Under the pieces are notes generated by a model. The model worked only from the letters and a program-made list of their open reading frames with translations, was not told the DNA's origin and made no database searches. The position numbers and the translations under genes are program-made. Shown one piece after another: positions 27,695-48,077 of a DNA stretch of 56,225 nucleotides (the stretch's first letter is position 1; each line of letters starts with the position of its first letter). Source of the DNA: a virus; IMG/VR virus record IMGVR_UViG_3300045976_000126, positions 1 through 56,225 of that record; one strand, written 5' to 3'.

Positions 27695-27723
27695 ACCTTA
27701 CCGGTCGGACATGGGGGTGTCAA
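27695..27723 (-). promoter_or_regulatory. Core-type promoter P13, TTGACA-17-TAAGGT
   Basis: -35 at 27718-27723, -10 at 27695-27700. The upstream gene reads through the promoter and its TAA stop (27698-27700) is the first half of the -10. Confidence 0.8.
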
Positions 27724-28066
27724 CACCTTTCTTGGCGCTGGCCAGATGCCAATGCTCCTGACGAATGAACCACGGCCCCGGCGCGTCCCTACACAGGTAC
27801 ACACGCTGCGGCACCGAATCGTCCAGCGCCGCCAACAGGCCGGCCGCCCGCTCCGCAGCCGCACGCGAGGCATAGCCCGGCTTGTGCCGGCCGCTCAGCT
27901 GCGTACACAGCGCCACCACGCGACCCCACCGACGGCTATGCCGGTGGATCGCGAACCGGGCCACCAAGTCGCGCCTGGCGGCGTGAGGCGACGACGCCTC
28001 TTGCTCGTGGCGTCGTCGCTCCCGCTCTGTCCCAAGCCGGCCGGTGTGCCGCCGGCCGCCGCTCAC
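27698..28066 (-). CDS. Unknown basic protein ending inside promoter P13
   Basis: Starts at GTG 28066 in a GTGA overlap; a TTG/GTG near 27970 is an alternative, because the first 30 residues are low-complexity Arg and contain a 10-bp hairpin (27989-28018). The core resembles small phage proteins of the Tyr-x-Ser-x-x-Ala-Ala-x-x-Ala ... Tyr-x-Cys ... Trp-His type. The last nine codons, Val-Asp-Thr-Pro onwards, are the promoter. Confidence 0.55.
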   Translation of the reverse strand: MSGGRRHTGRLGTERERRRHEQEASSPHAARRDLVARFAIHRHSRRWGRVVALCTQLSGRHKPGYASRAAAERAAGLLAALDDSVPQRVYLCRDAPGPWFIRQEHWHLASAKKGVDTPMSDR

Positions 28067-28284
28067 CCCAGGACCAGCCAGTACGCCAGGGCCAGCACCG
28101 AGTCGCCGACGGCGACGCCGAGCAGGCCGATGGTGATCTTGTACTGGCTGAGGTCCCAGCCACGCCCCTTGACCGTGAGCTGTAGAACCTTCCACATGCT
28201 GCACGCCTCTTGCGTGGTGTGCAGCAGCGCCACCACGCTGGCCGCAACCAGCACGACCAGCGCGGCGATCTGGCCGGCGGTCAC
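28063..28284 (-). CDS. Two-helix membrane protein (73 residues)
   Basis: Starts at GTG 28284 in a GTGA overlap. Hydrophobic spans at about residues 5-22 and 50-70 with a polar loop. Sits in the P14 operon. Holin-like topology, but far from the lysin. Confidence 0.65.
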   Translation of the reverse strand: MTAGQIAALVVLVAASVVALLHTTQEACSMWKVLQLTVKGRGWDLSQYKITIGLLGVAVGDSVLALAYWLVLG

Positions 28285-28751
28285 GACTCGTCCGCCGGCT
28301 TGGCCGGCTGAAAGTTCGAGTTGTCGATCGTGGCCTGCGCGACCTTGGCCAGCATGACCTTCTCGTTCATGTGCTGGGCCAGCGCGCGGGCCGCGTCCTC
28401 GGCGTCATAGCCGCCCTGGTCGATCAGGGTCGCCACGTAGGGCACAACGAACGGCGGCGGCGCGTACTCGCGGTCGAACACGTGCCAGCTGCCGGCGTCG
28501 TCGCCGCGTCCGGCGTAGTAGCGATCGCAGCGCAGCCAGTCCCACACCTCGCGCTGGTGGGTGAAGGTCTCGTGCAGGGCGCGCTGAAGCGCCTCGGGCT
28601 CGGTCCGGGTGGCGGCGGCGATGGCGACGCCGAGCGGGCCGAAGGTCTCGCCGAGCTTGTCGAGCGCTTCGATCAGGTTGGGGTCGATGTCGCGCTGCTG
28701 GTAGTCGCAGCCGACGCCGAACAGGTCGGCGAGCGTCTTGCGCTGGTCCAT
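28281..28751 (-). CDS. Unknown protein (156 residues)
   Basis: ATG 28751 with AAAGG upstream; a TTG eight codons earlier is less likely. Helical, acidic, with two Cys and a Tyr-Tyr-Ala-Gly-Arg segment. First gene after promoter P14. Function unknown. Confidence 0.65.
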   Translation of the reverse strand: MDQRKTLADLFGVGCDYQQRDIDPNLIEALDKLGETFGPLGVAIAAATRTEPEALQRALHETFTHQREVWDWLRCDRYYAGRGDDAGSWHVFDREYAPPPFVVPYVATLIDQGGYDAEDAARALAQHMNEKVMLAKVAQATIDNSNFQPAKPADES

Positions 28752-28789
28752 GGGGAGCCTTTCGTTGTGGGGCAACGGGTTCTGCGTTT

Positions 28790-28818
28790 ACGCTACAGGT
28801 CAAGCTTGGGGGTGTCAA
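28790..28818 (-). promoter_or_regulatory. Core-type promoter P14, TTGACA-17-TAGCGT
   Basis: -35 at 28813-28818, -10 at 28790-28795. The previous gene is translated through the promoter; its TAG stop (28793-28795) is part of the -10. Confidence 0.8.
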
Positions 28819-29155
28819 CAGGCTTCCACTGGCGATCCTCATACCGGAACCGCTGCCCCTGCACATCGATCTCGGGCGGCGGCACCACCCCGGCGAACGC
28901 CTGCATGAGCACCTCGGCCCGCCGGCCCGTCGCCGACAGCACCCGCTCGAACAACGGCCGCAGCACGCCGCGCCGGGCAGCCGGCGACAGCAGCAGGGCG
29001 CGCAGCTCGGCGTCCACCGTCGTGGCCAGATCGGTCACCGCGTAGACGATCGCGTGCACGTACGGGTCGCTGCGGTACTGGTCGGCGCGGTCGTCGTCTT
29101 CGTCCAGCAGCTCGTTTAGCACACGCAACACGAACTGGAAGTCTGCCGAGCTCAT
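28793..29155 (-). CDS. Helical protein ending inside promoter P14 (120 residues)
   Basis: ATG 29155 overlaps the upstream stop as ATGA. Helical and acidic, with a Leu-rich centre. The last codons, Pro-Val-Asp-Thr-Pro-Lys-Leu-Asp-Leu-stop, are the sequence of promoter P14. Last gene of the long P15 operon. Confidence 0.65.
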   Translation of the reverse strand: MSSADFQFVLRVLNELLDEDDDRADQYRSDPYVHAIVYAVTDLATTVDAELRALLLSPAARRGVLRPLFERVLSATGRRAEVLMQAFAGVVPPPEIDVQGQRFRYEDRQWKPVDTPKLDL

Positions 29156-29310
29156 AGCCCCTGGTCCTTGTGTCGTTTGGCCCTGGCGGCCCGCCGGCCG
29201 CAGATCGTGTGCGCCAACTTCGAGCGGTCGTCCGGGTTGGCCCGCACGTCCTGGCCCTTCACGTACGGCCGGCCGCACACCGCACAGACGCCGTCCTCGG
29301 GTGCCTTCAC
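29152..29310 (-). CDS. Zinc-ribbon microprotein (52 residues)
   Basis: Starts at GTG 29310 in a GTGA overlap. Cys-Ala-Val-Cys-Gly near residue 9 and His-Thr-Ile-Cys near 34, then a Lys/Arg tail. Typical small treble-clef arrangement. Confidence 0.65.
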   Translation of the reverse strand: MKAPEDGVCAVCGRPYVKGQDVRANPDDRSKLAHTICGRRAARAKRHKDQGL

Positions 29311-29783
29311 CGGAAGACACCTCGGTACTGGGCCAGCAGGTCGAGCACCCGGCCACGGGCGGCGTGCGCCTTGGCGGTCAGCGCGCCCGGGTCGGCAACG
29401 GCCGCTTCGATGGCGTAGGTCAGCGTGCCGGACACGTCGGCGTCGACCGCACGCCACAGGCTTTCGAGCACGGCGGCGAGCCGGTCGAAGTCGGTCAGCA
29501 CGGGCATGCCGTCGGTGATGGTCTGCACGTCGCGTTGCCGCTCGGCTTCCTGTTCGGCGGCGACCACGCGGCCGACGATTTGGGAGAGGCAGAGCACGCC
29601 GGCAGCGTGACGCAGCTCGTCGGCACCCGGCCCATCCCAACTGCCGCCGTGGAAGGCGCACTCCCCGGAGTACGGCGCGATCTCACACGGCCGGTCGGGG
29701 TCGGCATCCAGCTCGGCGGCCACCAGCAGTCGCCATGCGGCCGGCAGGGCGCGGTCGGGCAGATCGGGGTTGGCCACGGTCAC
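29307..29783 (-). CDS. Helical protein (158 residues)
   Basis: GTG 29783 overlaps the upstream stop; GTG two codons later is an alternative. Mostly Ala/Leu/Asp helices after a region with two Cys and one His. No motif recognised. Confidence 0.6.
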   Translation of the reverse strand: MTVANPDLPDRALPAAWRLLVAAELDADPDRPCEIAPYSGECAFHGGSWDGPGADELRHAAGVLCLSQIVGRVVAAEQEAERQRDVQTITDGMPVLTDFDRLAAVLESLWRAVDADVSGTLTYAIEAAVADPGALTAKAHAARGRVLDLLAQYRGVFR

Positions 29784-30076
29784 CACCCGCCGATGTTCTG
29801 CCAGGTGTGGCCGAGCCACAGCTTGACGGGGCGCAGGTCGTCGCGCATCTGGCGGATCAGGGCTCGGCCGATGGGGAACTCCTGGCGCTGGCTATCGGTG
29901 CCGAACTTGTGGACGCCGGTCCAGACCAGCACGACCAGGGCGACATAGGCAAGCGCGGTCCAGCTGAGGACAGTGTCGGCAGGGGTGCTGCCGCCGAGGA
30001 TGAGATGGAGGGTGGCAATGAGGATCAGCACGACTCCGGCGAGTCGGCTGATGGTGCGCATGGGAACGGGTTTCAC
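29780..30076 (-). CDS. Two-helix membrane protein (98 residues)
   Basis: Starts at GTG 30076 after GAAAGG; ATG five codons later is possible. Hydrophobic spans at about residues 10-27 and 36-53, then a charged, Trp-ending tail. Confidence 0.65.
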   Translation of the reverse strand: MKPVPMRTISRLAGVVLILIATLHLILGGSTPADTVLSWTALAYVALVVLVWTGVHKFGTDSQRQEFPIGRALIRQMRDDLRPVKLWLGHTWQNIGGW

Positions 30077-30117
30077 GGTCGTATGCCTTTCGGGGAATAC
30101 TCGCTGTGCGGGTTGTT

Positions 30118-30138
30118 GGGGTGGATGCTGACCACCCC
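30118..30138. terminator. Short hairpin between membrane-protein genes
   Basis: GGGGTGG and CCACCCC arms (30118-30124, 30132-30138), 7-nt loop. Possible attenuator inside the P15 operon. Confidence 0.5.
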
Positions 30139-30148
30139 GGGTCGAAGA

Positions 30149-30298
30149 TCATTTGCGTCGGCGCTGGCACCAGCAGTCGTCCATGATGTGGGCCGACGGC
30201 GAGTGGATGCGCAGCAGCCAGCCGAGCGCGGTCGCGCGCCACGGCCGGCGCGGCCAGCCCGGGCGGCGCTGCCACCACCAGACCTCGTGGCGCTTCAT
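30149..30298 (-). CDS. 49-residue Trp/Arg-rich peptide
   Basis: ATG 30298 overlaps the upstream stop as ATGA. Eight Trp and about a dozen Arg in 49 residues, with a Cys-Trp-Cys near the end. Such a cationic, Trp-rich peptide would associate with membranes or nucleic acid. No family known. Confidence 0.6.
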   Translation of the reverse strand: MKRHEVWWWQRRPGWPRRPWRATALGWLLRIHSPSAHIMDDCWCQRRRK

Positions 30299-30435
30299 CG
30301 GGTCAGCGCCACGATCGAGCACACCAGGGCGGCGATTGACAGCAGGGTCGATCCGATTAGGTGCACGCGCGCGTCGGACAGCACGTAGACCAGGGCGTAC
30401 CAGGCGTCGACCAGGCCATCCCACAGGTCACCCAT
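30295..30435 (-). CDS. 46-residue membrane peptide
   Basis: ATG 30435, inside the end of the upstream gene. A polar/aromatic first half (Trp-Tyr-Ala-Leu-Val-Tyr) is followed by a hydrophobic span. Flanked by overlapping tiny genes of the same kind. Confidence 0.6.
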   Translation of the reverse strand: MGDLWDGLVDAWYALVYVLSDARVHLIGSTLLSIAALVCSIVALTR

Positions 30436-30517
30436 GGTGGACCACCACCGACGCGACGGCGGAGGCGAGCAGCACGACGATCGCCACCACGGCCCACACG
30501 GTCTCGGCCCGGCTCAT
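30428..30517 (-). CDS. 29-residue single-helix membrane peptide
   Basis: ATG 30517 overlaps the upstream stop as ATGA, and the downstream ATG lies 8 nt inside this gene. Almost the whole peptide is one Val/Ala/Leu helix after five polar residues. Confidence 0.55.
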   Translation of the reverse strand: MSRAETVWAVVAIVVLLASAVASVVVHHG

Positions 30518-30984
30518 GGCCGCACCTCGATCGGGGCCATGGCCACCGGGTAGCTGGTGTTCCAGTCGACCATGCTGCCGCTGCACCCCGGCAGGTCGCA
30601 GCGGCTGCCCGGCATGCGGTTCGGACTCCACGCCGGCACCCAGCAAGCGCCGCAGGTCACCCTCGGCTGCTCCGCTGCGTGGCATTCGTAGCAGCGAGCG
30701 AGGTTGCGGCCATGCTCGCAGGCGGGGCCGCCGGACGGCAGCCACACGCGCGGTTCGGCCGGCGGCGTCTTCCAGCGCTCGAACTGGGCTTGCGGCACAG
30801 TGGCGAGGGTGGCATGCACCTGCGCCACGGCCACCAGCTCGGCGCGTGCCTTCCACAGGGTCTCGGCGGACACGTCGGAAGACACGTTGACGCCCTTGAT
30901 CAGGTCGTCGAGGCCGTCAGTGATCAGGTGCGTGGCCGCCTGGTAGTGCTGGCGCGGCGACATCATCTTGATCGGCTCGCTCAC
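30514..30984 (-). CDS. Cys-rich protein (156 residues)
   Basis: Starts at GTG 30984 in a GTGA overlap. A helical first half is followed by Cys-Glu-His, Cys-Tyr-Glu-Cys-His, Cys-Gly-Ala-Cys and two further Cys, enough for two zinc sites. Function unknown. Confidence 0.65.
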   Translation of the reverse strand: MSEPIKMMSPRQHYQAATHLITDGLDDLIKGVNVSSDVSAETLWKARAELVAVAQVHATLATVPQAQFERWKTPPAEPRVWLPSGGPACEHGRNLARCYECHAAEQPRVTCGACWVPAWSPNRMPGSRCDLPGCSGSMVDWNTSYPVAMAPIEVRP

Positions 30985-31385
30985 GGCTTGGTCACCTCTT
31001 CCAGCCGGCGCGCGGCCTCCCCAGCCCACGAGCGCTCGGCGCGTTGGCTGATCTCGGCGATGTGCGCCCAGTCGGGCTGCTCGAACTGGATGCCGGCATC
31101 GGTGAGCACGCGCTCGTACATGCCGTTGAGCAAGGTCGGGATCTGCACCTCGCGCCACGGCGTCGGGCCGACCAGGCGGGCCAGCCGCACGATCCGCGCG
31201 GCCAGACCGATACACGCGATAGACCAGACGCCGCCGATGGTGCGCTGCTGCGCTTCGGCAAGGTCGGTCCACAACGAAACCTGCTCTTCGCGCATGACGT
31301 CATGCCAGGTGCGGCCGACTGGTTCGTTACCGGGATCGAGCTCAGCGCCGAACACGTCGATGTCGGCCGTGCGAAAGTCGATCAT
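30981..31385 (-). CDS. Unknown protein (134 residues)
   Basis: ATG 31385 overlaps the upstream stop as ATGA. A compact alpha/beta composition with a hydrophobic centre (Ile-Ala-Cys-Ile-Gly-Leu-Ala) and a helical, charged end. Resembles other actinophage proteins of unknown role. Confidence 0.6.
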   Translation of the reverse strand: MIDFRTADIDVFGAELDPGNEPVGRTWHDVMREEQVSLWTDLAEAQQRTIGGVWSIACIGLAARIVRLARLVGPTPWREVQIPTLLNGMYERVLTDAGIQFEQPDWAHIAEISQRAERSWAGEAARRLEEVTKP

Positions 31386-31678
31386 GACTTGGCCACCTTC
31401 CGCAGCTCGGCGGCAATCGCGTTCAGGCTCTGCATGGCCGGCAGGAACGCGGCAGTCAGGGCGTCGCTCAACGCCTTGAACCGCTCGGCGAGCCGTGCGA
31501 CGTCCTCGGCGGTGAGGCCCGGAAGCGTAGGCTCGGGCGGCGGCGGGTTCAGGTTCACCGACACCTCGAAGTCGCCGGGGATGAACTCCTGCCGGCCGGT
31601 CGGCTCGCCATCGGCGTCGAGGTGCGTGACCCGGATGCCCTCGGCGTGCATGTGTGGCTGGCCCTGATTGCTGATCAC
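31382..31678 (-). CDS. Unknown protein (98 residues)
   Basis: Starts at GTG 31678 in a GTGA overlap. A beta-rich, acidic first half, a Pro run (about residues 45-50), then an amphipathic helix. Function unknown. Confidence 0.6.
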   Translation of the reverse strand: MISNQGQPHMHAEGIRVTHLDADGEPTGRQEFIPGDFEVSVNLNPPPPEPTLPGLTAEDVARLAERFKALSDALTAAFLPAMQSLNAIAAELRKVAKS

Positions 31679-32850
31679 TGTGCGTCCTCCCTGCTCAGGT
31701 AGTGGCGCACGGCCTCTTGGATGCGGCCGGCAGCGTCGGACATGATCTTGCCGATCTCGGCGGCGAGCTCGCCCCACGGTGTGGGGCCGCCGTCGAGCAC
31801 CAGTTCGAGCGACACCGGCGGGTCCATGCGCACCAGCACGCGCAGCCGACGCCGGTCGATCATCATGCTGTCGCCGGTGTCGCACTCGAACAGGAAATCG
31901 CGGCCGTCGCCCTTCGCGCCCAAGCGCAGCAGCGACTGCTGATCGGCCTTGGCACGCTCGACCATCTGCCCGGCAATCCAGCTGTCAATCAGGCGCTCGG
32001 TCTCCTCGCGGATCGCCGACGCGTCCACCTTGACCGGCGGCCACGTCCCGTCGACCCGCAGCGAATCCAAGGCGTCGCGCGCCTGCTGACTGTGGCGGAT
32101 GCGGATCTCGCCCGGCCCCGGGTACTGCGGCTGCCCGGTGACGCGCTGCATAGTCTCGTGCGCCTCGGCCGCCTGCTCGCGGTCGCAGGCCGAGCAGTTG
32201 CGGCACGCCGTCGAACTCGGGCGCGGCTTCGGGGTGCCGCGATGCTGGTTCAGGTCGTGACCGCAGGCCTTGCACTCCAACCCAGACGGCACCCGGTGAT
32301 AGGCGCACTTCTCGGTCGGCGTGCAGTGGGCGCACCTCGGCGCACCGTGCGCCCGGCACTTGCTGACGTTCGTGCATCCGCACGGCGCGATCGGGGCCGG
32401 CGTCGCCGGGTCGCGGACGTACCAGTACCGGCAGGTCCATTCGTGCACGTTCTCGGCAGCGCGCGGGCAGCCGCACAGGGAAATCTGTCCAGCGTCGGCC
32501 GGCCCGTCGAGCTCCTGCACGCACTGGCCGAGGCACGAGCAGCAGCCGCCGCACGGCCCCTGGTCGTCGCTCATGCCCCGGCAGGACTCGGCGGTGCAGT
32601 CGTGCGAGCGTCGGCGCAGCTCGTAGTGCACCCCATCGTGGTTCATCGACTTGAACGGGGAGACGTAGCCGATCGCCTTGGCGTGGCGAGCAGTCTCGGC
32701 CGCATGGATGAACTGCGGCCACTGGTCACCGGGGAAGGTGCCTGACAGCGGTCCGGCGTTCAGCACGCGCCAGCAGGCGTTCGCGCAGTCGTGGGTGCAT
32801 TGCCCGTCGTCCGGGCAGCCGTTGAACGGGCGCGCGGTCTCGTCGCTCAC
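31675..32850 (-). CDS. 391-residue protein with 25 Cys in its N-terminal part
   Basis: Starts at GTG 32850 in a GTGA overlap. Residues 1-240 hold 25 Cys in several clusters (Cys-x5-Cys-x3-Cys, Cys-Gly-Gly-Cys-Cys-Ser-Cys, Cys-x-Cys, Cys-Ala-His-Cys, Cys-Lys-Ala-Cys, Cys-Arg-Asn-Cys) plus many His, as if several zinc-ribbon modules were strung together. Residues 250-391 are helical and acidic without Cys. It is by far the longest accessory protein. No family recognised; modular fusion of small zinc proteins is my inference. Confidence 0.7.
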   Translation of the reverse strand: MSDETARPFNGCPDDGQCTHDCANACWRVLNAGPLSGTFPGDQWPQFIHAAETARHAKAIGYVSPFKSMNHDGVHYELRRRSHDCTAESCRGMSDDQGPCGGCCSCLGQCVQELDGPADAGQISLCGCPRAAENVHEWTCRYWYVRDPATPAPIAPCGCTNVSKCRAHGAPRCAHCTPTEKCAYHRVPSGLECKACGHDLNQHRGTPKPRPSSTACRNCSACDREQAAEAHETMQRVTGQPQYPGPGEIRIRHSQQARDALDSLRVDGTWPPVKVDASAIREETERLIDSWIAGQMVERAKADQQSLLRLGAKGDGRDFLFECDTGDSMMIDRRRLRVLVRMDPPVSLELVLDGGPTPWGELAAEIGKIMSDAAGRIQEAVRHYLSREDAQ

Positions 32851-33422
32851 TTGCTGAACACCCTCTGGAGAACGGTGAGGTCGCCCTCGGCCTTGAGTGC
32901 GCGGCGCTTCCAGTCGTCGCGCTCGGCGGTCAGCTTCTCGATCTTGCGCTCGGCGGCGTCGGCGCGGTGCACGATGTCGAGCACGCCGGTCACGAAGTCG
33001 CCTTCGATCTTCGGTGCCCGCTGCTTGTGCCGGTTCAGGTGCGGCCGGATCGAGGCCGGCGACTTGTCGACGTAGTTGCACTCGGCACAGCCGTAGACGA
33101 TGACGTCGCCTTCGAGCAGCAGCGTCCGGATGCGCTGCCAGTAGACGGCCTGGCCGTCCTTGGTGGTGATGGGCGATTCGGTCGGCGTGTCGCTGATGAT
33201 CTTGAACTTGCCGATCTCGTGCCCATCGTTCAGGTGCACCTCGACGAAGTCGAGACGCTCGCCGCTCTCGGCGAGCCCCCGTGACATGCCGGTGTTCTTG
33301 CGCGGCGTCGCCTTGTAGGCCATGCTCACGTCCCCTTCGCTGGTGACCGGCACCCCGGCCACGCTGATCGTCTTGCCTGCGATGTCTATGCCGAGCCGCT
33401 CGAACAGCCCACGGAGCGTCAT
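32847..33422 (-). CDS. C2H2-type zinc finger and coiled-coil protein (191 residues)
   Basis: ATG 33422 overlaps the HNH gene stop as ATGA. A short N-terminal domain is followed by a strand-rich region and a finger Cys-x2-Cys-x12-His-x3-His near residue 120. The last 45 residues form a charged coiled coil. A DNA-binding role is likely from the finger, but no target is known. Confidence 0.65.
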   Translation of the reverse strand: MTLRGLFERLGIDIAGKTISVAGVPVTSEGDVSMAYKATPRKNTGMSRGLAESGERLDFVEVHLNDGHEIGKFKIISDTPTESPITTKDGQAVYWQRIRTLLLEGDVIVYGCAECNYVDKSPASIRPHLNRHKQRAPKIEGDFVTGVLDIVHRADAAERKIEKLTAERDDWKRRALKAEGDLTVLQRVFSK

Positions 33423-34012
33423 CGGCGTGCGTGGCCCAGCTGCGCGCCGTGCTTCGAGTTGCACGAGCCGCAGGCGGGTTGGATGTTGGTACGGCGGTAG
33501 GTCCCGCCCTGGCAGCCGGGCAGGATCCTGTCGACCGAGATCGTGTCGATGGTGACCACCTCGGCGCAGCCGGCCAGCTTCAGCGAGCACGGCGCGGTGG
33601 TGCCGTCGCCGAACTGGTCGAGCAGCCACTGCTTGCGCCGCCGCCGTGCCGCGCTGCCGCCCCTGCTGTTGCCGTTGGTGGTGCCACGGTGCGTCTTCGG
33701 CACCACGCCGGCCACCCAGCGCCGCCCGGCCGCCGTGGTCAGCATGGTCCGGACATGCAGCCGTCCGTGCGGCCAGCCGGCGCGTGAGGTGCGAATCTGG
33801 CCGGCCTTCCACAGCTCCCGCACCGCGCGGCCCGTGGCCGGCGGCAGCGGATCGAGGTGCTCGGGCCGGCCGTCTTCGTAGCGGAGCCGTCGGAAGTCCG
33901 TACCGCCGGCAGCGCGGTCTCGCCCATGCGTTCGCTGGACAGCCACCACGTCGCCGAGCTCGACCAGCCACATGGTCTCGGCGCGGTGGCGCGTCAGGGC
34001 GAGGTCGCTCAT
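33419..34012 (-). CDS. HNH endonuclease-like protein (accessory region)
   Basis: 197 residues from ATG 34012, overlapping the upstream stop as ATGA. The N-terminal 120 residues are basic and helix/strand mixed. The C-terminal 60 residues carry the HNH zinc frame: Cys-x-Leu-x-x-x-Gly-Cys, Thr-Ile-Asp-x-Ile-Ser-Val-Asp-Arg-Ile-Leu, Gly-Gly-Thr-Tyr, Asn-Ile-Gln-Pro-Ala-Cys-x-x-Cys-Asn. The usual His before the Asp is replaced (Asp-Arg instead of Asp-His), as in some variants. Could be a homing-type or packaging-related nuclease. Confidence 0.75.
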   Translation of the reverse strand: MSDLALTRHRAETMWLVELGDVVAVQRTHGRDRAAGGTDFRRLRYEDGRPEHLDPLPPATGRAVRELWKAGQIRTSRAGWPHGRLHVRTMLTTAAGRRWVAGVVPKTHRGTTNGNSRGGSAARRRRKQWLLDQFGDGTTAPCSLKLAGCAEVVTIDTISVDRILPGCQGGTYRRTNIQPACGSCNSKHGAQLGHARR

Positions 34013-34197
34013 CGGTTGCCGCACAGGGCTCGGACGCCGAGAGTGACGCCACCGATGACCAGCAGCGCGCCCCCCATGCTGACGACGTGGGGCATGGACG
34101 GCAGGCTGTGGGCCGCGTCGACAAGGGCCGAGACGCCGTCGAGGAATCGGTTGGGCAGCTGCGCCAGCGCGTTCACGATGTCGTTCAGGACCTGCAT
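34009..34197 (-). CDS. Small membrane protein (62 residues)
   Basis: ATG 34197 after GGGAGA. An amphipathic N-terminal helix is followed by one hydrophobic Gly/Leu/Val span (about residues 40-57). First gene of the long P15 operon. Confidence 0.65.
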   Translation of the reverse strand: MQVLNDIVNALAQLPNRFLDGVSALVDAAHSLPSMPHVVSMGGALLVIGGVTLGVRALCGNR

Positions 34198-34230
34198 GGC
34201 GTCTCCCTGTGGTTGCTGTTCAGTGCTGCC

Positions 34231-34259
34231 AAGCTACACCCAGCGCTAGGTGGTGTCAA
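34231..34259 (-). promoter_or_regulatory. Core-type promoter P15, TTGACA-17-TAGCTT
   Basis: -35 at 34254-34259, followed by CCACC (one C short of the usual core); -10 at 34231-34236. The TGA stop of the previous gene (34256-34258) is part of the -35. Drives the longest accessory operon, 34197 down to 28793. Confidence 0.75.
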
Positions 34260-34414
34260 CTCTTCCGCTGACAGTTCTTGCACTGCTTCATGGGAAAAGT
34301 GCTGCCGATCTTCCGGTACGGCCCCCAACACGGTGCGCCCGGGTCGGTCACCTTCCCGTCCTTGTTGCGCTTGACCTTGCAGTCGCCCTGCTTCGCGGGC
34401 TGCCTGTCCGCCAC
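34256..34414 (-). CDS. Small Cys-containing protein (52 residues)
   Basis: GTG 34414, one base after the previous stop. Two separate Cys and a final Cys-Lys-Asn-Cys, with many Lys. Zinc-binding is plausible. Its stop codon lies inside the P15 -35. Confidence 0.6.
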   Translation of the reverse strand: MADRQPAKQGDCKVKRNKDGKVTDPGAPCWGPYRKIGSTFPMKQCKNCQRKS

Positions 34415-34415
34415 G

Positions 34416-34727: not shown

Positions 34728-34753
34728 GGGGAACCTCGCTTCGATGGTTGGTC

Positions 34754-34794
34754 GCGGCCGACGGCCCGGGGCTGGTCACCGGGTCGCCGGCCGC
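34754..34794. terminator. Imperfect GC-rich hairpin
   Basis: GCGGCCG and CGGCCGC outer arms plus CCCGG/CCGGG inner pairing, between the 39- and 103-residue genes. Possible attenuator within the P16 cassette. Confidence 0.5.
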
Positions 34795-34798
34795 ACGC

Positions 34799-34918: not shown

Positions 34919-34923
34919 CACGA

Positions 34924-35192: not shown

Positions 35193-35221
35193 ACGCTACA
35201 CCCCGTGCGTGTGGGTGTCAA
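35193..35221 (-). promoter_or_regulatory. Core-type promoter P16, TTGACA-17-TAGCGT
   Basis: -35 at 35216-35221 in TTGACACCCACA, -10 at 35193-35198. The TAG stop of the upstream gene (35222-35224) abuts the -35. Marks the border between terminase genes and the accessory region. Confidence 0.8.
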
Positions 35222-35662
35222 CTAGGTTGGCAGGCCGCGCTCCCGGCGCAGCGCCACCACGTTGCGCACCACCTGCGCGTCCGGACGAAACCGCCGGCCG
35301 CCCGGGGCCTGCCAACGGCCGTCCGGCAGCTTGACCCACGCCGCCGGGTCGTGCTGCGGCGGCCGGCCCGAGGCGCGCGGCGGCCGATGCGTCGGCGGGG
35401 TGCCGGCGGCAGCCGTCAACGCGGTGCGCGGATCGGCCGCGTCCTGCTCGGTCAGCTGCGACAGGTCGTACTTGGCGTTGCGCGACCGCGCGTAGCCGGC
35501 AATCGTCACCTCGACGAACGCGCACTCGATCGCTCGGGCCAGCTCGGCCTGCGTGCGCACCACCGAGGCCCAGCCGCGCGTCAGCGGCGTCTCGATGCGG
35601 AAGCGGCCGTCGGACAAGCGTTCGACGGTGAGCGGAATCATGGTGGGCCGATGGGGGGCCAT
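35222..35662 (-). CDS. Unknown protein next to terminase (146 residues)
   Basis: ATG 35662 with GGAAGGCGG upstream. The first 75 residues (Val-Glu-Arg-Leu-x-Asp-Gly-Arg-Phe-Arg-Ile, then Leu-Thr-Arg-Gly-Trp) resemble a protein often found beside actinophage terminases. The second half is Pro/Arg-rich with a final basic helix. Function unknown. Confidence 0.65.
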   Translation of the reverse strand: MAPHRPTMIPLTVERLSDGRFRIETPLTRGWASVVRTQAELARAIECAFVEVTIAGYARSRNAKYDLSQLTEQDAADPRTALTAAAGTPPTHRPPRASGRPPQHDPAAWVKLPDGRWQAPGGRRFRPDAQVVRNVVALRRERGLPT

Positions 35663-40735: not shown

Positions 40736-42070
40736 TCAGCTGCGGTCGGTGATGTCGCCGTAATGCGCCCGCCACGCCAGCTCGACCACGCCGGTCGGGC
40801 CGTGCCGGTTCTTGGCCAGGTCGAACTTCACGATGCCCAGATCGGACGAGACCTCGGTGCCGTTCATCTCGACCGTCTCGGTCGGGCGACTGATCAGCAC
40901 CACACCGTCAGCGTCCTGTTCGAGGCTGCCGGTCTCGCGCAGGTGGTGCAGCATCGGCTCGCCGGTCCCCTGCCGGTTGAGCTGGGCCAGCGCGATCACC
41001 ACGATGTCGAGCTCTTTCGCCAGCCGCTTCAGCGCGCCGGACATGCCGGCCACCTGCTCTTGCCGGCTGTTGCCAGGGCCACCGTGCAGCAGCTGCACGT
41101 AATCGACGACGATCAGCCGCAGGTCGTGCTTGCGCTTCCACCGTCGGGACTGGGCGGTGATGAACGGGATGGACATGTTGGGGGCGTCGCTGATGGCCAG
41201 CGGCAAGTCCACCGACCGCATCCACTCGCCGTGCACCTTGGCGTCGAGCAGGGACCGCTCGGACGGGGCAAAGCTGGTGAAGTCGGACAGCTCGGCGCGC
41301 AGGGCACGCGCCATCCACCTGTCCATGATCTCGCGCCGGGCCATCTCGGCCGAGAACATGATCGTCGAGTAGCCGGATTCGGCCGCGTACTGGCCGAGCG
41401 CGCCGCCGGCCAGCGTCTTGCCGTCGCCGGGCCGCGCGCCGAACACGTACATGCCGCCGGGGCGCAGGCCGCCGCCGCTGAACAGCCGGTTGAGGTCGGA
41501 CCACGGCGTGGGGATCAGGTCGAGCATGGGGCCGCCGGCCAGTTCGCCGAGGTACTCATCCACGTAGTCGACGACGCGGATCACGCCGTCGTCAGCGGCT
41601 GCGGTGCCCTCGATCTCGCGCCAGGTCTCCGAGGCCTTGGCCAGGATGACGTCCAGCGAGCTGGCGTCGCCCATGTCGGCCAGCTGGGCGAGACGCTGGC
41701 CGAGCGCTCCGACCTTGCGAAGCCGGGAGGCGTCGTGCACGCGCTGCGCCGAGACGAGCGCCCACTCGGGCAGGGACGCGCCCGAGCACTCGCGGGTGAG
41801 CACCTCGCGGCAGTGGGCCAGCTGGCGGCCGGACAGTCTGCGGCCGAGCTCGTCGAGCATGCCGCCGATTTCCAGCACGTCGCCGCTCTCGCGGTAGGCG
41901 GCGGCGACGGACCAGATCACGGCCCGGGCCGAACTGGTGAAGTCGGCGGCCCGCACGAGCCGCAGCGCGTCGTCGAGCACGTCGGCCAGGTTCGGGTACA
42001 TCACCAGGCCCATGAGCGCGATCTCGTCGGCTTCGACTTGCTGCTGCCGGTCGGCAGCGGACAGGGTCAC
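40736..42070 (-). CDS. DnaB-type replicative helicase
   Basis: 444 residues from GTG 42070 in a GTGA overlap. N-terminal helical domain (about 1-150), then RecA-like ATPase with Walker A Gly-Ala-Arg-Pro-Gly-Asp-Gly-Lys-Thr at 211-219, Phe-Ser-Ala-Glu-Met near 240, and Walker B Leu-Ile-Val-Val-Asp-Tyr at 319-324, and an Ala-Gln-Leu-Asn-Arg-Gln motif near 362. Unwinds DNA at the phage fork. No phage polymerase was found, so the host polymerase is probably recruited. Confidence 0.9.
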   Translation of the reverse strand: MTLSAADRQQQVEADEIALMGLVMYPNLADVLDDALRLVRAADFTSSARAVIWSVAAAYRESGDVLEIGGMLDELGRRLSGRQLAHCREVLTRECSGASLPEWALVSAQRVHDASRLRKVGALGQRLAQLADMGDASSLDVILAKASETWREIEGTAAADDGVIRVVDYVDEYLGELAGGPMLDLIPTPWSDLNRLFSGGGLRPGGMYVFGARPGDGKTLAGGALGQYAAESGYSTIMFSAEMARREIMDRWMARALRAELSDFTSFAPSERSLLDAKVHGEWMRSVDLPLAISDAPNMSIPFITAQSRRWKRKHDLRLIVVDYVQLLHGGPGNSRQEQVAGMSGALKRLAKELDIVVIALAQLNRQGTGEPMLHHLRETGSLEQDADGVVLISRPTETVEMNGTEVSSDLGIVKFDLAKNRHGPTGVVELAWRAHYGDITDRS

Positions 42071-42534
42071 CGCTCGGACCGGAACGAGTCGGCGTTCTTC
42101 TCGGCCCAGCGCCGCCACTCGGCGTCCGGCAGGGCGGCCATGACGCGCTCGGCGATGCCGCCGCTCTTCACCCACTCCCACCGGTTGTCCTGCCAGTGGC
42201 GTTCCATCTCCACGGGGGTCGGGGTCTGCTCGAAGGCGTCGGCCACGAACTGCTTGGCCACGGGGTGTCGCCAGCAGAACATCTTGGCCAGCTTGAGCAG
42301 GTTGCGCTGGCGCAGCACCTGCTCGTGCACGTGGGCAATCCGGATGTAGCCGGTGCGGTTCAGGTTCAGCCAGCGCACGGCCGCCTCGACCTCATCGGGG
42401 GTCCACTCGCCGTCTTCGGCGGCCAGCATCCACCGCTGCACAACGATCTTGTCGAAGGCCTCGGACACGTCGAGCAGGTTCAGCAGCCGGCCCAGTTCCT
42501 CGGGCGTGATCCGTTGTGGCACAATGGCATTCAT
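42067..42534 (-). CDS. Helicase-adjacent protein, possible loader
   Basis: 155 residues from ATG 42534. Helical throughout, with Trp and Arg and a charged end. It is translationally coupled to the helicase gene and follows the winged-helix gene, the usual spot for a helicase loader or zinc-free primase partner. No loader motif is recognised, so the role is positional. Confidence 0.55.
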   Translation of the reverse strand: MNAIVPQRITPEELGRLLNLLDVSEAFDKIVVQRWMLAAEDGEWTPDEVEAAVRWLNLNRTGYIRIAHVHEQVLRQRNLLKLAKMFCWRHPVAKQFVADAFEQTPTPVEMERHWQDNRWEWVKSGGIAERVMAALPDAEWRRWAEKNADSFRSER

Positions 42535-42563
42535 CAGCCGTACTCGCCTTTCCGGTTGGTCTG

Positions 42564-42590
42564 CCCCGGGACGTTCCAGCGTCGCCGGGG
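42564..42590. terminator. Hairpin after the replication-protein gene
   Basis: CCCCGG and CCGGGG arms with GACG/CGTC pairs and one bulged base. Lies 34 nt past the stop at 42624. Confidence 0.55.
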
Positions 42591-42623
42591 TCTTTCCTGT
42601 CTAGCCGATCTTGCATCTCGGCG

Positions 42624-43763
42624 TCAAGCCGACTGCCGGCCGTACTCGGCGAACGCGACCTCGATGCTCAGCGCACGGCGCTGCGCGTTCGTCGTGCCCT
42701 CGGGCAGCGTCACCACGCCCTGCGACGTCACCAGCTGTTTGCCCGGCCGGGCCGTGGCCCAGTTTCGGGCCGGGTTCACGTGCTGCATGGACCAGGTGAT
42801 CGTGGCCTTGCCGGCGGCCCCGGCATGCTGGCAGGCCATGAACACGTGGTTGGGGTTGTTGCCGGCGGCGATCAGCGCGCGGATCTCGCGCCCCGCCTGG
42901 CCGAACATGCGCCCCGACGGGTTGCTGCCGTTCTGCTCGATCGAGGCCTGCGACCAGACGTCGACCAGCTTGCGGGTCCAGCCGGTGAGCGTGTCGGCCT
43001 CGCGCGGGTCGGGCCAGCGGGTCGAGTCGAACAGCTGGGCCTCGGCCGGCTTGCGCTTGCCCTTCGGCAGCTCTTCGGGGATCAGCCAGGACGCCGAGCG
43101 GTTCGGCAGCATGGCCGGTCGGGTGGCCAGCTCGGCGGTGGGGGCGTCCTCGACGATCTCGGCCTCGATCACCTCCGGGCCGGCCGGCGGCGCGTCAGCG
43201 GCGGCGGAAGAGAGGTGGGGTTCGTCTTTCTGGTGTTCCCCTATGGAAGGTCGGGTGACACACACTGCGTTGTCGGGCTCGCTCACAACGGGGTATGTGT
43301 CACCCCCCGAGGCCTCCACAACGGGGTGTGCGTCACCCCCCGCATGGTTCGCCTTGTACCTGGCCCACCGCTCGGCCGCCTTCTTGCGGCGGTGCTCGGC
43401 GGCGGCGTCGTAGGGCAGCCAGCCCTCGGCCATCGGCAAGTCCATGTTCAGCCGGACCCGGATCGTGCCCTTGGGGCCTCGGCCGTCACGGATGATCTGC
43501 TTGGCGTCCTCGGCCTCGCGGTACAGCCGGAACACGGTGCGGCGCGTCGTGTGCATGTGCTCGGCCACGCGGTCGACGGACGGGAAGATGTTGGTGCCGT
43601 CCGGATTGGCGAAGTCGGCCAGGTAGGTGACGAACCGGCGCAGCTTCTCGCGCGCCCGTCCCCGGCCGTCGAGCAGCAAGGGGACCTGTTCCTTCCACTG
43701 CTGCACACTCAGCGAACCGGTGTCAACTTGCTGGTCTGGGCCGTTGCCCTGAGGATTGGTCAC
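42624..43763 (-). CDS. Winged-helix replication initiation-like protein
   Basis: 379 residues from GTG 43763 with GGGAG upstream. Residues about 35-105 form a winged-helix DNA-binding domain: Arg-Arg-Phe-Val-Thr-Tyr-Leu, then Ile-Phe-Pro-Ser-Val-Asp-Arg-Val-Ala-Glu-His and Thr-Arg-Arg-Thr-Val-Phe-Arg. A long disordered acidic linker (about 140-230) joins a C-terminal helical domain. Phage replication proteins of this plan bind the origin and load DnaB, which lies two genes downstream. Confidence 0.7.
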   Translation of the reverse strand: MTNPQGNGPDQQVDTGSLSVQQWKEQVPLLLDGRGRAREKLRRFVTYLADFANPDGTNIFPSVDRVAEHMHTTRRTVFRLYREAEDAKQIIRDGRGPKGTIRVRLNMDLPMAEGWLPYDAAAEHRRKKAAERWARYKANHAGGDAHPVVEASGGDTYPVVSEPDNAVCVTRPSIGEHQKDEPHLSSAAADAPPAGPEVIEAEIVEDAPTAELATRPAMLPNRSASWLIPEELPKGKRKPAEAQLFDSTRWPDPREADTLTGWTRKLVDVWSQASIEQNGSNPSGRMFGQAGREIRALIAAGNNPNHVFMACQHAGAAGKATITWSMQHVNPARNWATARPGKQLVTSQGVVTLPEGTTNAQRRALSIEVAFAEYGRQSA

Positions 43764-43799
43764 CGATAGACTCCCGTCAAGTCAAGTGGTTGTGTTCCG

Positions 43800-43834
43800 C
43801 AGCCCCGCCAATGGGTCGCCACCCGGCGGGGCTG
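43800..43834. terminator. Perfect 10-bp terminator-like hairpin
   Basis: CAGCCCCGCC (43800-43809) and GGCGGGGCTG (43825-43834), 15-nt loop, with a short T run on the plus-strand side. Separates the HNH gene from the replication protein gene. Confidence 0.65.
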
Positions 43835-43884
43835 TTTCGCGTCTGAAGTCCGATCGTAGCCGTCGACGATCGACGACAACAGAG

Positions 43885-44493
43885 CTACTGGCCGTCCGGC
43901 CGCTCGGGTTCGGGTGTCCAGCTCTTGCCGGCCATCCGCCCGTACGGGACGAGCGTGGGCAGCGGCTTCGGCATGACGTACCGGCCGACGGCGGCGTACT
44001 CGGCGCGCAGCTGCTCGGGGTCGTGGACCACATTCTCTTCCTCGGGCGTCCAGTCCACCCGCACGACGCCGTCCAGACTGCGCCGCCAGGGGACGCCGCC
44101 AACGGCGATGGGCGGTCCGATCGGGACGCGGATCTCATCCACCAGCAGCACCCACTGGCGAATGAGGGGCGACCGGGCGATCAGCACCGGTGTCAGGTCC
44201 AGCGGCGTGGTGGACAGCTTCGACACGAGCCAGCCGCGCGGGCCTGACACGCTGTGGCGGTCCGCGTGCACGCTGCCCGGGCCGCCGTTGTGCACGACCG
44301 GATCGAGCGCGAGCAGGTTCGGCAGGGTGTCGGTGTCGGACCGGTACGTGCCGCCCATGCCCTTGTTGCGCCGGTGATGGGCGTCGAAGGTGTCCGGGTC
44401 GAGTGGTCGCCCGCTGACCTCGCACACGCCGCCGCACCGGAACCACAAGGCCTCGCGCAGGACTTTCCAGTTGGGTCGTGGCCGCTTGGGCAT
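43885..44493 (-). CDS. HNH endonuclease
   Basis: 202 residues from ATG 44493, first leftward gene after the divergent region. The HNH core is near residues 20-70: Cys-Gly-Gly-Val-Cys-Glu-Val, then Asp-Ala-His-His-Arg-Arg-Asn-Lys-Gly-Met-Gly-Gly, Asn-Leu-Leu-Ala-Leu and a His-Asn-Gly. The rest is strand-rich. Free-standing HNH enzymes act in packaging or as homing nucleases; which is unclear here. Confidence 0.85.
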   Translation of the reverse strand: MPKRPRPNWKVLREALWFRCGGVCEVSGRPLDPDTFDAHHRRNKGMGGTYRSDTDTLPNLLALDPVVHNGGPGSVHADRHSVSGPRGWLVSKLSTTPLDLTPVLIARSPLIRQWVLLVDEIRVPIGPPIAVGGVPWRRSLDGVVRVDWTPEEENVVHDPEQLRAEYAAVGRYVMPKPLPTLVPYGRMAGKSWTPEPERPDGQ

Positions 44494-44497
44494 TGTG

Positions 44498-44526
44498 TTG
44501 ACTCCCCTCGGTCGGGTGGGTATGAT
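44498..44526 (+). promoter_or_regulatory. Rightward promoter P17, TTGACT-17-TATGAT
   Basis: Near-consensus sigma-70-type promoter: -35 at 44498-44503, -10 at 44521-44526, 40 nt upstream of the GTG start of the rightward operon. Probably the strongest early promoter. Confidence 0.8.
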
Positions 44527-44530
44527 CCTC

Positions 44531-44559
44531 AGTATGCGAGCACGGCGGAGGGAGGTCAA
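44531..44559 (-). promoter_or_regulatory. Leftward promoter P19, TTGACC-17-CATACT
   Basis: -35 at 44554-44559, -10 at 44531-44536. Its -10 is 5 nt from that of P17, so polymerases would compete. Would feed the HNH gene and the long leftward operon. Confidence 0.55.
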
Positions 44560-44565
44560 CACCAG

Positions 44566-45168
44566 GTGAGCACGAAGCGACCGGCCGAGAGCATCAAGAG
44601 CCCCGACCAGCTGACCGAGCAGGACAAGCTGATCTTGCGGCTGAAGAACGAAGAGGGCCTCAGCTTCCGCGAGATCGGCGAGCGGATCGGCATGACCCGG
44701 GGCGGCGTGCAGATCGCCTATCGGCGGGCCGGCGGCGAGACGAACCGGCAGTGGCCGGTCGAGAAGCCGGACGACGCCGAGCACATGGCCGAAGTGCGGG
44801 TCGCGCAGAAGGTGCTCGACGCCGCCGCCGCCCGGCTCGACGTCGTGTGCGACGAGCTTCAGCTGATCGGATCTAGCCGGCCGACGCTGGCCGCCGTCTG
44901 CCGCGAGCTGATCCGGCAGCCGCTCGACGACGAGAGCTTCCCGCAGTTGGAACAGCCGTTCACCTCGAACCCGCCCGGCGCGCTCGGGGCACCCGCCCAG
45001 ATCTTGCGGTGGCGAGACGTGTGGGGGCCGTATCGGCGGGCGCAGGCGGCGATCCACGCCCGGGGCTACTCGGTCAGTCAGGTGATCGACAAGCGGCTGG
45101 AGCAGTTCGCCCGAATCGGCACGCTGCCCGGCGTGCTGCGCCACTACCAGACAGGGGACGACGAATGA
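44566..45168 (+). CDS. Helix-turn-helix DNA-binding protein, possible early regulator
   Basis: 200 residues. GTG 44566 is chosen by GGAGG 10 nt upstream and by promoter P17; longer frames would cross the promoter. Residues about 25-55 resemble a sigma-factor region-4 type helix-turn-helix (Ser-Phe-Arg-Glu-Ile-Gly-Glu-Arg-Ile-Gly-Met, then Val-Gln-Ile-Ala-Tyr). The rest is helical without a recognised domain. As the first gene beside the paired core sites, it is the best candidate in the genome to read the repeated promoter cores. Confidence 0.7.
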   Translation: MSTKRPAESIKSPDQLTEQDKLILRLKNEEGLSFREIGERIGMTRGGVQIAYRRAGGETNRQWPVEKPDDAEHMAEVRVAQKVLDAAAARLDVVCDELQLIGSSRPTLAAVCRELIRQPLDDESFPQLEQPFTSNPPGALGAPAQILRWRDVWGPYRRAQAAIHARGYSVSQVIDKRLEQFARIGTLPGVLRHYQTGDDE

Positions 45169-46679
45169 CGGACGAGACGGGCGAACCGAAGCCCAAGCGG
45201 GTGGCCATGCAGGTTGCCCTCGAAGCCGAGCGGCTGGCCAAGCAGGCACTCGGCGAGATCGAGAACATCGGCGCGCTGGCCGAGGCCGCCGCCGAATCGG
45301 GCGGCGGTGCGCCGGTCGGCGGTGTGCTGGCCGAGTTGCGCGACGCCACGCAGAAGATCATCGACCTGATCCCCGGCAACCTGTGGGCCGGCAAGGGCGG
45401 CGCGCTGGCCACGCAGGAACAGGTGGCCGAGGTGCGCGACCAGGTGGGTGATCTGATCGACTGGCGGGCCGGCTTCCTCGGCGCGGACGGCCCCAAGGGC
45501 GTGTGGGCCGTGGCCGAGACGGTCGACACGCTGCGGAAGCACCTCGACCTGCTTGACGGGCGCGTTGACATCCTGGACGAGTGGCGAGCCGCCGAGCTCG
45601 ACCCCGACAATCTCGGTGCGCCGTCGGAGCTGGCCGAGCAGTTGGCCGAGGTGCGCGAGGAGTTGGCCGCGCTGAAGTTCCACGCGACTTCGATCGGCGG
45701 CGGCCAGTCGATGCCGGCCGCGCCGCACGTGCTCGGGCTGATCTTGCAGCTTCAGCGCGGCGTCGCCGAGATCGGCAAGGGCCGCGAGTTCAAGGCCGAG
45801 AACAGCCGTGGCGTGGTCACCCAGCAGTACAGCTTCCGTGGTGTCGACGACGCGCAGAACGCGATCGGCTCGGTACAGCGCAACATCGGCTTGATCGGCC
45901 CCCGGGTGACGGTGCTGGAAAAGGCCGTCAGCACGGAGACTGTCCAGAAGTCGGGATACGCGCAGGTCATGACCACCGTCAGCGTGACGGTGCGCTACAC
46001 CTTCCAGTCCCCGGTGGACGGCTCCGAGTGGTCCACTGAGGGCTGCGGCATGGGCCGGGACGCAGGCGACAAGGCCGAGTCGAAGGCCCTGGCCGGCGCG
46101 TTCAAGTACGCCCTGTTCCACGGCCTGAACATTCCGGTCAAGGGCGTGTTCGTCGACGCCGAGACCGAAGATCCCCGGATCGAGCACGAGATCGGGCAGG
46201 GCACGGCCGACCGTCGCGAGCAGACCGGTTACGCGCAGGACCGGATCGATCGGGACGCCGGCAGGACGTACGGCCACGGGCACGCGCCGATCGGCGTCGG
46301 CGAGCAGCGGTCGGCCAGCAAGGCATGGGACGACCCGGCCGAGCAGTACGGGGAGGCCATGGCCGCGCAGGCGTTCGATCAGGCGATGCGCAACCCGTCG
46401 CCCGAGACGATCGCGCGATCCACCGAGCTGAACGCGCAGGCCCAGCAGCAGCGGGTGGACGAGCGGCCGCCGGCCGAGCAGGCGCAGGCGGCCCTGCATG
46501 CGGCCCGTCAGGCCGCTGGCGCTGGCCAGGTCGCGGCCATCTGGAACCGGGCGCACGAGCTGCGGATCTTGTCCATGCATGTCGACGGCTCGCAGCTCGG
46601 TCAGCACCTGATCGCGGTGCTGAACACGCTGCCCGGCGGCACCGCTGTGCAGCTGCCCGGGATGGAGCACTACCGGTGA
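45165..46679 (+). CDS. erf: ERF-family single-strand annealing protein
   Basis: 504 residues from ATG 45165 in an ATGA overlap. An N-terminal coiled and helical part (about 1-170) precedes the ERF-like core: Tyr-Ser-Phe-Arg-Gly-Val-Asp-Asp, strands with Val-Thr-Val-Arg-Tyr-Thr-Phe, then Gly-Cys-Gly-Met-Gly-Arg-Asp-Ala-Gly-Asp-Lys-Ala and Ala-Phe-Lys-Tyr-Ala-Leu. The C-terminus is Gln/Ala-rich and helical. ERF proteins anneal single strands in phage recombination; a core near 200 residues is usual, so this is a long version. Confidence 0.8.
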   Translation: MTDETGEPKPKRVAMQVALEAERLAKQALGEIENIGALAEAAAESGGGAPVGGVLAELRDATQKIIDLIPGNLWAGKGGALATQEQVAEVRDQVGDLIDWRAGFLGADGPKGVWAVAETVDTLRKHLDLLDGRVDILDEWRAAELDPDNLGAPSELAEQLAEVREELAALKFHATSIGGGQSMPAAPHVLGLILQLQRGVAEIGKGREFKAENSRGVVTQQYSFRGVDDAQNAIGSVQRNIGLIGPRVTVLEKAVSTETVQKSGYAQVMTTVSVTVRYTFQSPVDGSEWSTEGCGMGRDAGDKAESKALAGAFKYALFHGLNIPVKGVFVDAETEDPRIEHEIGQGTADRREQTGYAQDRIDRDAGRTYGHGHAPIGVGEQRSASKAWDDPAEQYGEAMAAQAFDQAMRNPSPETIARSTELNAQAQQQRVDERPPAEQAQAALHAARQAAGAGQVAAIWNRAHELRILSMHVDGSQLGQHLIAVLNTLPGGTAVQLPGMEHYR

Positions 46680-47311
46680 CGGCCGCCGGATATGCCGAGC
46701 TGGTCGAAAAGGCCATGGTGAACATCCTGCACGCCGCCGGCCACACGGACGTGATCCACTGCATCCCGTCCTTCGGGCCGGTCAGTATGCAGGTGGACAA
46801 CGACGGCAAGCAGTGGGCGGTGTGCAGCTGCGGCGAGATCGAGGAGATTCCCGACGGCATCGAATCGCAGCTCAAGAGCGCCGGAGCGCCGGTCGCGGCC
46901 GATCCGGTGCAGCCGGGCCTGCCGCTGATCGACCCGTCGCAGATCGCCACGCCCGAGATGCTCGAAGCGCACCTGCTCGACGTGATTCAGCGACTGGAGA
47001 CCGGGCAGCTGTTCGAGCGTGAATGCATCGAGGCCGAGTACGAAGCGCGGATGGCCTGGGAACGCGCCAAGGCCAAGGCCATCGTGAAGGGCGGCGGGGC
47101 GGCCGACGTGCGCGAGGCGCGGGCGATCGAGGAACATGGCGACCTGCTGGACGCCTGGCGGCGGGCCGAGATGATGCGGAAGGCCACGCAGGCGGCCATG
47201 CACAACCTGCGGTCGGCACTGTCCGGCTATCAGACGGTGGCCCGCTCGGTGCTGACCACCTATCAGGCCGGCGGATCGCCCGGCCCGAACCGACAGATGG
47301 GACGTAACTGA
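46676..47311 (+). CDS. Unknown recombination-operon protein (211 residues)
   Basis: Starts at GTG 46676 in a GTGA overlap. A small N-terminal domain with Cys-Ser-Cys-Gly and a His is followed by a long helical region (about residues 90-190). Lies between ERF and SSB, so a role in DNA recombination is likely; it could be a nuclease partner, but no catalytic motif is visible. Confidence 0.6.
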   Translation: MTAAGYAELVEKAMVNILHAAGHTDVIHCIPSFGPVSMQVDNDGKQWAVCSCGEIEEIPDGIESQLKSAGAPVAADPVQPGLPLIDPSQIATPEMLEAHLLDVIQRLETGQLFERECIEAEYEARMAWERAKAKAIVKGGGAADVREARAIEEHGDLLDAWRRAEMMRKATQAAMHNLRSALSGYQTVARSVLTTYQAGGSPGPNRQMGRN

Positions 47312-47313
47312 TC

Positions 47314-47877
47314 ATGGGTGCATTGCAGGTGAGCGGCGTGTGCCGCATCGGGGCGGATCCGGAGCTGCGGTTCACGCCGAGCGGTGCGGCCGTGTGCTCG
47401 ATCCGCGCCATCTTCCAGGACCGGTACCAGGACCGACAGACCGGCGAGTGGAAGGACGGCGACGCCGTGTGGGTGTCGCTGGTCGGCTGGCGGCAGCTGG
47501 GCGAGAACATGGCCGAATCGTTCAAGAAGGGCGACGACGCCATGGTGACCGGCACGCTGGTCACGCGCGAGTATGAGACGCGCGACGGCGGCAAGGGCTA
47601 CGCGGTCGAGGTCAAGGTGCGCGAGATCGGCCCGTCGATCCGGTTCAAGGCGGCCATGTCGCAGCGCGTCGACCGGCAGCAGTACGACGGTCCGGCGGCC
47701 GGCCCGGTGGTGGACCCGTGGACGGGTGAGCCCGCCCGCCAGCAGCCGCAGGGTGGCCGGCCGCAGCAGAGCAGCACGTGGCAGGTGTCCGGTCAGCCGG
47801 TTCAGGGCCAGGGCGATCCGTGGGGTCAGCCGCCGTCGCAGGGCGGCCCCGGCTACGCCGACCGTCCGCCGTTCTGA
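47314..47877 (+). CDS. ssb: Single-stranded DNA-binding protein
   Basis: 187 residues from ATG 47314. Residues 1-110 fit an OB fold of the SSB family: Val-x-Arg-Ile-Gly-Ala-Asp-Pro-Glu-Leu-Arg-Phe-Thr, Trp-Val-Ser-Leu-Val-Gly-Trp, and Lys-Gly-Asp-x-x-Met-Val-Thr-Gly-Thr-Leu. A Gly/Gln/Pro linker ends in Pro-Pro-Phe, the tip by which SSBs recruit partners. Works with the ERF protein next door. Confidence 0.92.
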   Translation: MGALQVSGVCRIGADPELRFTPSGAAVCSIRAIFQDRYQDRQTGEWKDGDAVWVSLVGWRQLGENMAESFKKGDDAMVTGTLVTREYETRDGGKGYAVEVKVREIGPSIRFKAAMSQRVDRQQYDGPAAGPVVDPWTGEPARQQPQGGRPQQSSTWQVSGQPVQGQGDPWGQPPSQGGPGYADRPPF

Positions 47878-48074
47878 TGGCCAGGCATCGCAGGGTCGAG
47901 CCGGGGGCGTCCAACGGGCGTCACCGGCCGGCCCGCAGCCGGGACCGGATCCCGGTTGAGCTGCGGCATAGCGGCGGCGGCCACCGGGCCTCACTGGGCT
48001 GTACGGGGTGGCTGATGGTGGCCGTGTCGGTGGCCGTCCTGCTGTTCGTTGACACCCACCGTCCGAAGGCGTAG
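47877..48074 (+). CDS. Small membrane protein ending inside promoter P18 (65 residues)
   Basis: ATG 47877 overlaps the SSB stop by one base. A basic, His/Arg-rich first 40 residues precede a hydrophobic span (about 43-57). The last codons, Val-Asp-Thr-His-Arg-Pro-Lys-Ala-stop, are the promoter, and the TAG stop is the start of its -10. Confidence 0.55.
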   Translation: MARHRRVEPGASNGRHRPARSRDRIPVELRHSGGGHRASLGCTGWLMVAVSVAVLLFVDTHRPKA

Positions 48075-48077
48075 CGT
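48049..48077 (+). promoter_or_regulatory. Core-type promoter P18, TTGACA-17-TAGCGT
   Basis: -35 at 48049-48054 in GTTGACACCCACC, -10 at 48072-48077. ATG 48085 follows after 7 nt, so the transcript is probably leaderless. Only full core site in rightward orientation. Confidence 0.8.

Follow-up and report, generated by a model that had tools for sequence, protein, structure and literature searches.

Several genes in the phage genome studied here end inside promoter-like elements, which raises the question of how coding and regulatory sequence came to be merged at these sites. The genome is a metagenomic phage record from IMG/VR with a GC content of 69% and 127 identical bases at both ends, and we refer to the whole analysed stretch of 56,225 bases as the window.

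The pattern TTGACA-N17-TANNNT, with at most one mismatch, matched 18 times in the window against 1.07 matches expected, and the core GTTGACACC-N15-TANNNT was also far more frequent than chance. By weight matrix, the window has 18 sites and a set of 13 related phage genomes has 212, and the reversed-sequence controls have none. Nearly every site had its -10 box at 17-18 nt. As in primary-sigma (sigma70/sigmaA-type) promoters, hexamers at a spacing of 16-18 nt occurred above chance and at a fixed distance ahead of a start codon. The distribution of these distances was bimodal: 154 of 193 sites had their start codon 26-60 nt downstream, and 17 had it at most 10 nt away; the latter 17 are predicted from their sequence to be leaderless. 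The consensus of the predicted primary-sigma-type promoter is GTTGACACCCAC-N11/12-GGGTANNNT, and TAA or TAG was present in 129 of the 212 -10 boxes. Judging from these features, we infer that the sites are active as promoters and make use of the host sigma factor.

The window has several further features. The leaders of the sites at 22718, 23834, 25134 and 18721 begin with GTTC and contain GAAC about 10-20 nt further on, which suggests a conserved leader hairpin. Two opposed copies of GTTGACACC are found 20 nt apart at 23017-23045. A gene at 44566..45168 (plus strand), whose product has a sigma-70 region 4-like helix-turn-helix and is a candidate regulator, adjoins a promoter-like site at 44498. 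The early region also contains a 28-bp inverted repeat (21802-21829 and 23899-23926, 96% complementary, 2.07 kb apart), a possible origin or recombination site.

At four junctions the upstream gene is fused with the promoter. On the minus strand, the promoter TTGACA-17-TAAGGT at 27695..27723 has its TAAGGT at 27700-27695, and the upstream gene (27698..28066, minus strand) stops on the TAA at 27700-27698 within this -10 box. This upstream gene encodes 122 aa ending in EHWHLASAKKGVDTPMSDR, has orthologues in the relatives G005, G023 and G025, and was assigned a GTG start by comparison with its orthologues; the downstream gene (27491..27661, minus strand) starts with an ATG 33 nt past the -10. 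Similarly, the promoter TTGACA-17-TAGCGT at 28790..28818 (minus strand) has its TAGCGT at 28795-28790, with the upstream stop TAG at 28795-28793. The upstream gene (28793..29155, minus strand), recognized by gene call and alignment, encodes 120 aa ending in RQWKPVDTPKLDL, and the ATG of the downstream gene (28281..28751, minus strand) follows 38 nt past the -10. On the plus strand, the promoter TTGACA-17-TAGCGT at 48049..48077 has its TAGCGT at 48072-48077 and the upstream stop TAG at 48072-48074, so that the coding sequence spans the entire promoter through the first bases of the -10. Here the upstream gene (47877..48074, plus strand; orthologues in G005, G023 and G025), the start of which overlaps the preceding stop (TGATG), encodes a small membrane-like protein of 65 aa ending in VLLFVDTHRPKA. 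The downstream gene (48085..48417, plus strand) has its ATG 7 nt past the -10, a spacing that is the same in three orthologues, and is predicted to be leaderless. The fourth junction places the stop in the -35: in the promoter TTGACA-17-TAGCTT at 34231..34259 (minus strand), the TGA at 34258-34256 lies within the TTGACA at 34259-34254 and closes a gene (34256..34414, minus strand) for a small CxxC protein of 52 aa ending in KNCQRKS. The downstream gene (34009..34197, minus strand) again has its ATG 33 nt past the -10.

Orthologues in up to three relatives support the assignment of all four upstream ORFs as genes. The junctions were found exactly as the original prediction had described them, with stops in the -10 at 27698, 28793 and 48072 and a TGA stop within the -35 at 34256, and all four bear out its statement that coding and promoter sequence are merged. 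The three genes that stop in the -10 have the tails GVDTPMSDR, PVDTPKLDL and FVDTHRPKA. Val-Asp-Thr is GTTGACACC translated in one frame, and it is followed by Pro or His because promoter position 10 is C or A. The shared motif VDT(P/H) had been considered a by-product of the core in one frame, and this interpretation holds, as the sequences that follow VDT show no relationship among orthologues.

We compared these gene ends with those of twelve relatives. Some relatives were reached via the promoter pattern and confirmed by their major head protein (about 75% or 50% identity), and others were reached independently via the terminase; of eight genomes examined from the terminase search, seven also carried the strict promoter. 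The matched frame of the major head protein contained one internal TGA in each of the four distant relatives (G003, G007, G010 and G012); this may be alignment past a stop or real readthrough. The host is presumably an actinobacterium, since the terminase has its best named relative, at 52%, in a locus of Actinocrispum wychmicini; the promoter is absent there.

Some of the fusions are conserved. In the family of the 28793 gene, all four phages (this phage, G005, G023 and G025) stop on the TAA or TAG of the -10; the relatives have the tails RVDTPVESV, EVDTHTAGE and EVDTPAYGA, and near the end only W and VDT are common to all four, the remainder of the tails being unrelated. The same four phages all use the TGA of the -35 in the 34256 family, and three of four stop in the -10 in the 48072 family, with the stop of G025 in the spacer.

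At other loci the stop moves. In the 27698 family the protein body ends in HWHLA, and the stop lies 6 nt ahead of the -35 in G005, in the -10 in G000, and past the whole promoter in G023 and G025, where in G023 it shares the sequence ATGA with the next start. Among the orthologous loci, the gene after the terminase is the most informative; here a promoter at 35193..35221 (minus strand) abuts the TAG stop (35222-35224). The conserved tail of this gene, RxRGLPT or RKGLP, is kept in the relatives, the promoter abuts it, and only the stop changes position: just ahead of the -35 in five genomes (G000, G005, L049, L052 and L057), at the TGA of the -35 in L072, at the TAA of the -10 in L058, and at a TGA using the last T of the -10 in another five (G003, G007, G010, G012 and L056). 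A single-sequence query with this gene matched only its own source. Likewise, the TAG just ahead of the -35 at G003:50102 has been lost at G010:9632, which yields a tail ending in VDTH. Stop drift after the same body fits the loss or gain of stops beside a fixed promoter rather than a loss of C-terminal residues. The sequences themselves show the promoter family, its overlap with genes, its conservation and the drift of the stops. Promoter-like sites with the -35 spelled TTGTAA were also observed, at G003:35234, G010:53179 and G007:9600; in G003 and G010 the upstream gene stops on this TAA.

Are stops concentrated in the promoters? Among 128 distinct cores, 87 had a confidently coding upstream gene. 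Stops were no denser in the 30-nt core, where 23 of these 87 genes end, than in the 30 nt immediately before it, where another 23 end. The 23 core stops comprised nine at the TGA of the -35, eight at the TAA or TAG of the -10, two using the final T of the -10, and four elsewhere. Endings in the third frame numbered three of 23 vs 7.7 expected (p ~0.03, calculated by hand and uncorrected for orthologues), a deficit that is not strong evidence of selection. Since these endings are somewhat few, the stop-providing frames are perhaps mildly favoured. The fusion of stop and promoter is largely mechanical, because TTGACA and TAA/TAG close two of the three frames.

The explanation that we hold with considerable confidence is that genes are densely packed around stop-containing promoters, that the VDT tail is a by-product, and that stops drift while promoter and protein body remain fixed. 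Each of the approximately 18 promoter copies would serve the adjacent downstream gene, whose transcript would be leaderless or have a leader roughly 30-48 nt long, and tight packing would cause many upstream genes to end beside or inside the promoter. There, the TGA of TTGACA would close one frame and the TAA or TAG opening the -10 would close the GTT-GAC-ACC frame. Hence, most ORFs entering the promoter would end in it because the promoter itself supplies the stops, and the VDT tail would follow from the DNA-level constraint on the promoter. The stop position could then drift between relatives, with promoter and protein body unchanged. Most promoter-derived tails are probably without function. 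Some may be constrained, because in five relatives another gene has the conserved tail VDTP(V/I)RWG directly before its stop, with differences mostly at third codon positions; in this small sample a promoter-derived tail might have become part of the protein. In compact genomes, promoters can be embedded in the 3' end of the upstream gene, so that coding and promoter sequence overlap and a stop can lie inside a promoter hexamer. Unlike such embedded promoters in general, the overlap described here is repeated throughout one promoter family and is traceable from orthologue to orthologue. Our results confirm the stop-promoter overlap and explain it as an ordinary consequence of dense packing, unusually well documented here; a literature search found no paper describing this exact overlap.

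A different type of junction occurs where the upstream gene stops about 20-50 nt ahead of the -35. There, the stop is often followed by the reverse complement of the promoter's own spacer, as in CGCCCCAACTCGGTG-TTGACACC-CACCGAGTTGGGGCG, so that the transcript can fold into a long hairpin whose loop contains the -35. Pairing of a site with its own spacer was detected in 19 of 128 sites vs 0.9 expected, with a maximum of five in 2000 permutations. A hairpin was present in 12 of 27 sites with a stop 16-60 nt upstream, vs one of 34 sites with a stop nearer or inside (p ~1e-4). Four such hairpins in the window, all on the minus strand, are long and perfect or near-perfect, with stems that vary from site to site. 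At 22697..22732 (region 22690-22740) the -35 lies in the loop, the spacer forms the 3' arm, and the upstream stop is 27 nt ahead of the -35; 23491..23531 (region 23485-23535) has the same design with its own stem, and so do 26065..26105 (region 26061-26105) and 22164..22205 (region 22159-22205). Complementarity within the spacer itself (CCCAC..GTGGG) was also considered and rejected, as it did not exceed that of permuted halves (z = 0.3 for 17-nt and z = 2.0 for 18-nt spacers).

Stable G+C-rich hairpins after the stop, as in intrinsic terminators, thus occur above chance, but the 3' arm runs into TANNNT without a U-run. We infer that these hairpins are terminators of the upstream genes fused to the next promoter. 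The early region of phiC31 contains several early promoters as well as terminator hairpins between its genes, and its terminator-promoter intergenic units resemble the arrangement described here. The phiC31 early promoters are not known to be of the TTGACA-TANNNT type, and we know of no report of a -35 inside a terminator loop in that phage. It is possible, although we find it doubtful, that a single 30-bp punctuation module combines the promoter of the next gene with, in alternative versions, either the stop of the last gene or its terminator loop and 3' arm. If so, one element would decide where translation ends, where transcription ends and where transcription begins. Junctions of the hairpin type would insulate neighbouring transcription units in unusually little space.

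The fusion could also be a selected device, in which ribosomes that reach the end of the upstream gene cover the promoter or terminator or make it accessible and thereby couple the two genes. The conserved stops at 28793, 34256 and, mostly, 48072 point in this direction, as does the largely mutual exclusion of -35 hairpins and stop fusion. However, stops drift freely at other loci and the core is not enriched in stops, while the exclusion also follows simply because coding sequence occupies the position of the 5' arm. We therefore regard such coupling as unlikely.

The original prediction favoured another history, in which the promoter core arrived by replacing gene ends, i.e., a mobile or copied cassette overwrote them. 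The occurrence of many almost identical cores at gene ends that are unrelated, with VDT common to the tails, would fit this scenario. Yet in the orthologues the C-terminal body is conserved right up to the promoter, only the stop moves, and the tails are extensions past a neighbour's stop rather than replacements. Moreover, no homologue was found that lacks the promoter and has a longer native C-terminus. Replacement of gene ends was not borne out, and we give a cassette little credence. A homologue with VDT but without the promoter was not found either, and the viral contigs and phage records searched yielded no promoter-less homologue of the 28793 gene.

Finally, the repeats resemble the stoperators of Cluster A mycobacteriophages, which are repressor-binding sites of the L5 type. 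The commonest form, read as its reverse complement GGTGGGTGTCAAC, differs at two positions from the L5 consensus GGTGGMTGTCAAG (PMC3029335), and is in this sense a 13-bp site with no more than two departures from consensus. Like these repeats, stoperators occur in many asymmetric copies in one orientation with transcription, with TTGACA on the other strand, and are placed between genes or across gene ends (PMC3029335, PMC5712189). The majority of stoperators are not promoter-associated (PMC6550527), whereas here a -10 and a fixed-distance start codon follow nearly every copy, a placement that fits promoters and not elongation-blocking stoperators; on these grounds we rejected membership of the stoperators, which is the least probable reading. 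Among the proteins scanned, which covered most non-structural genes, PHROGs and Pfam gave no match to a repressor family, an L5-type repressor was not detected, and no integrase family was matched. The SAS/ESAS elements of Cluster K are likewise repeated ahead of a subset of genes, about half of them with an inverted repeat (PMC3203893). In contrast to our sites, the 13-bp SAS lies at the translation start and its sequence, GGGATAGGAGCCC, differs from the -35/-10 core, while the ESAS arms share a common consensus and the hairpin stems here are site-specific.

Dense packing around stop-containing promoters offers a natural series in these phages, in which one gene end, followed through up to twelve relatives, shows the stop wandering through a fixed promoter, and in which promoter DNA is seen adding short peptide tails to proteins. 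It also carries a warning that a shared C-terminal motif such as VDT should not be taken as a protein signal.
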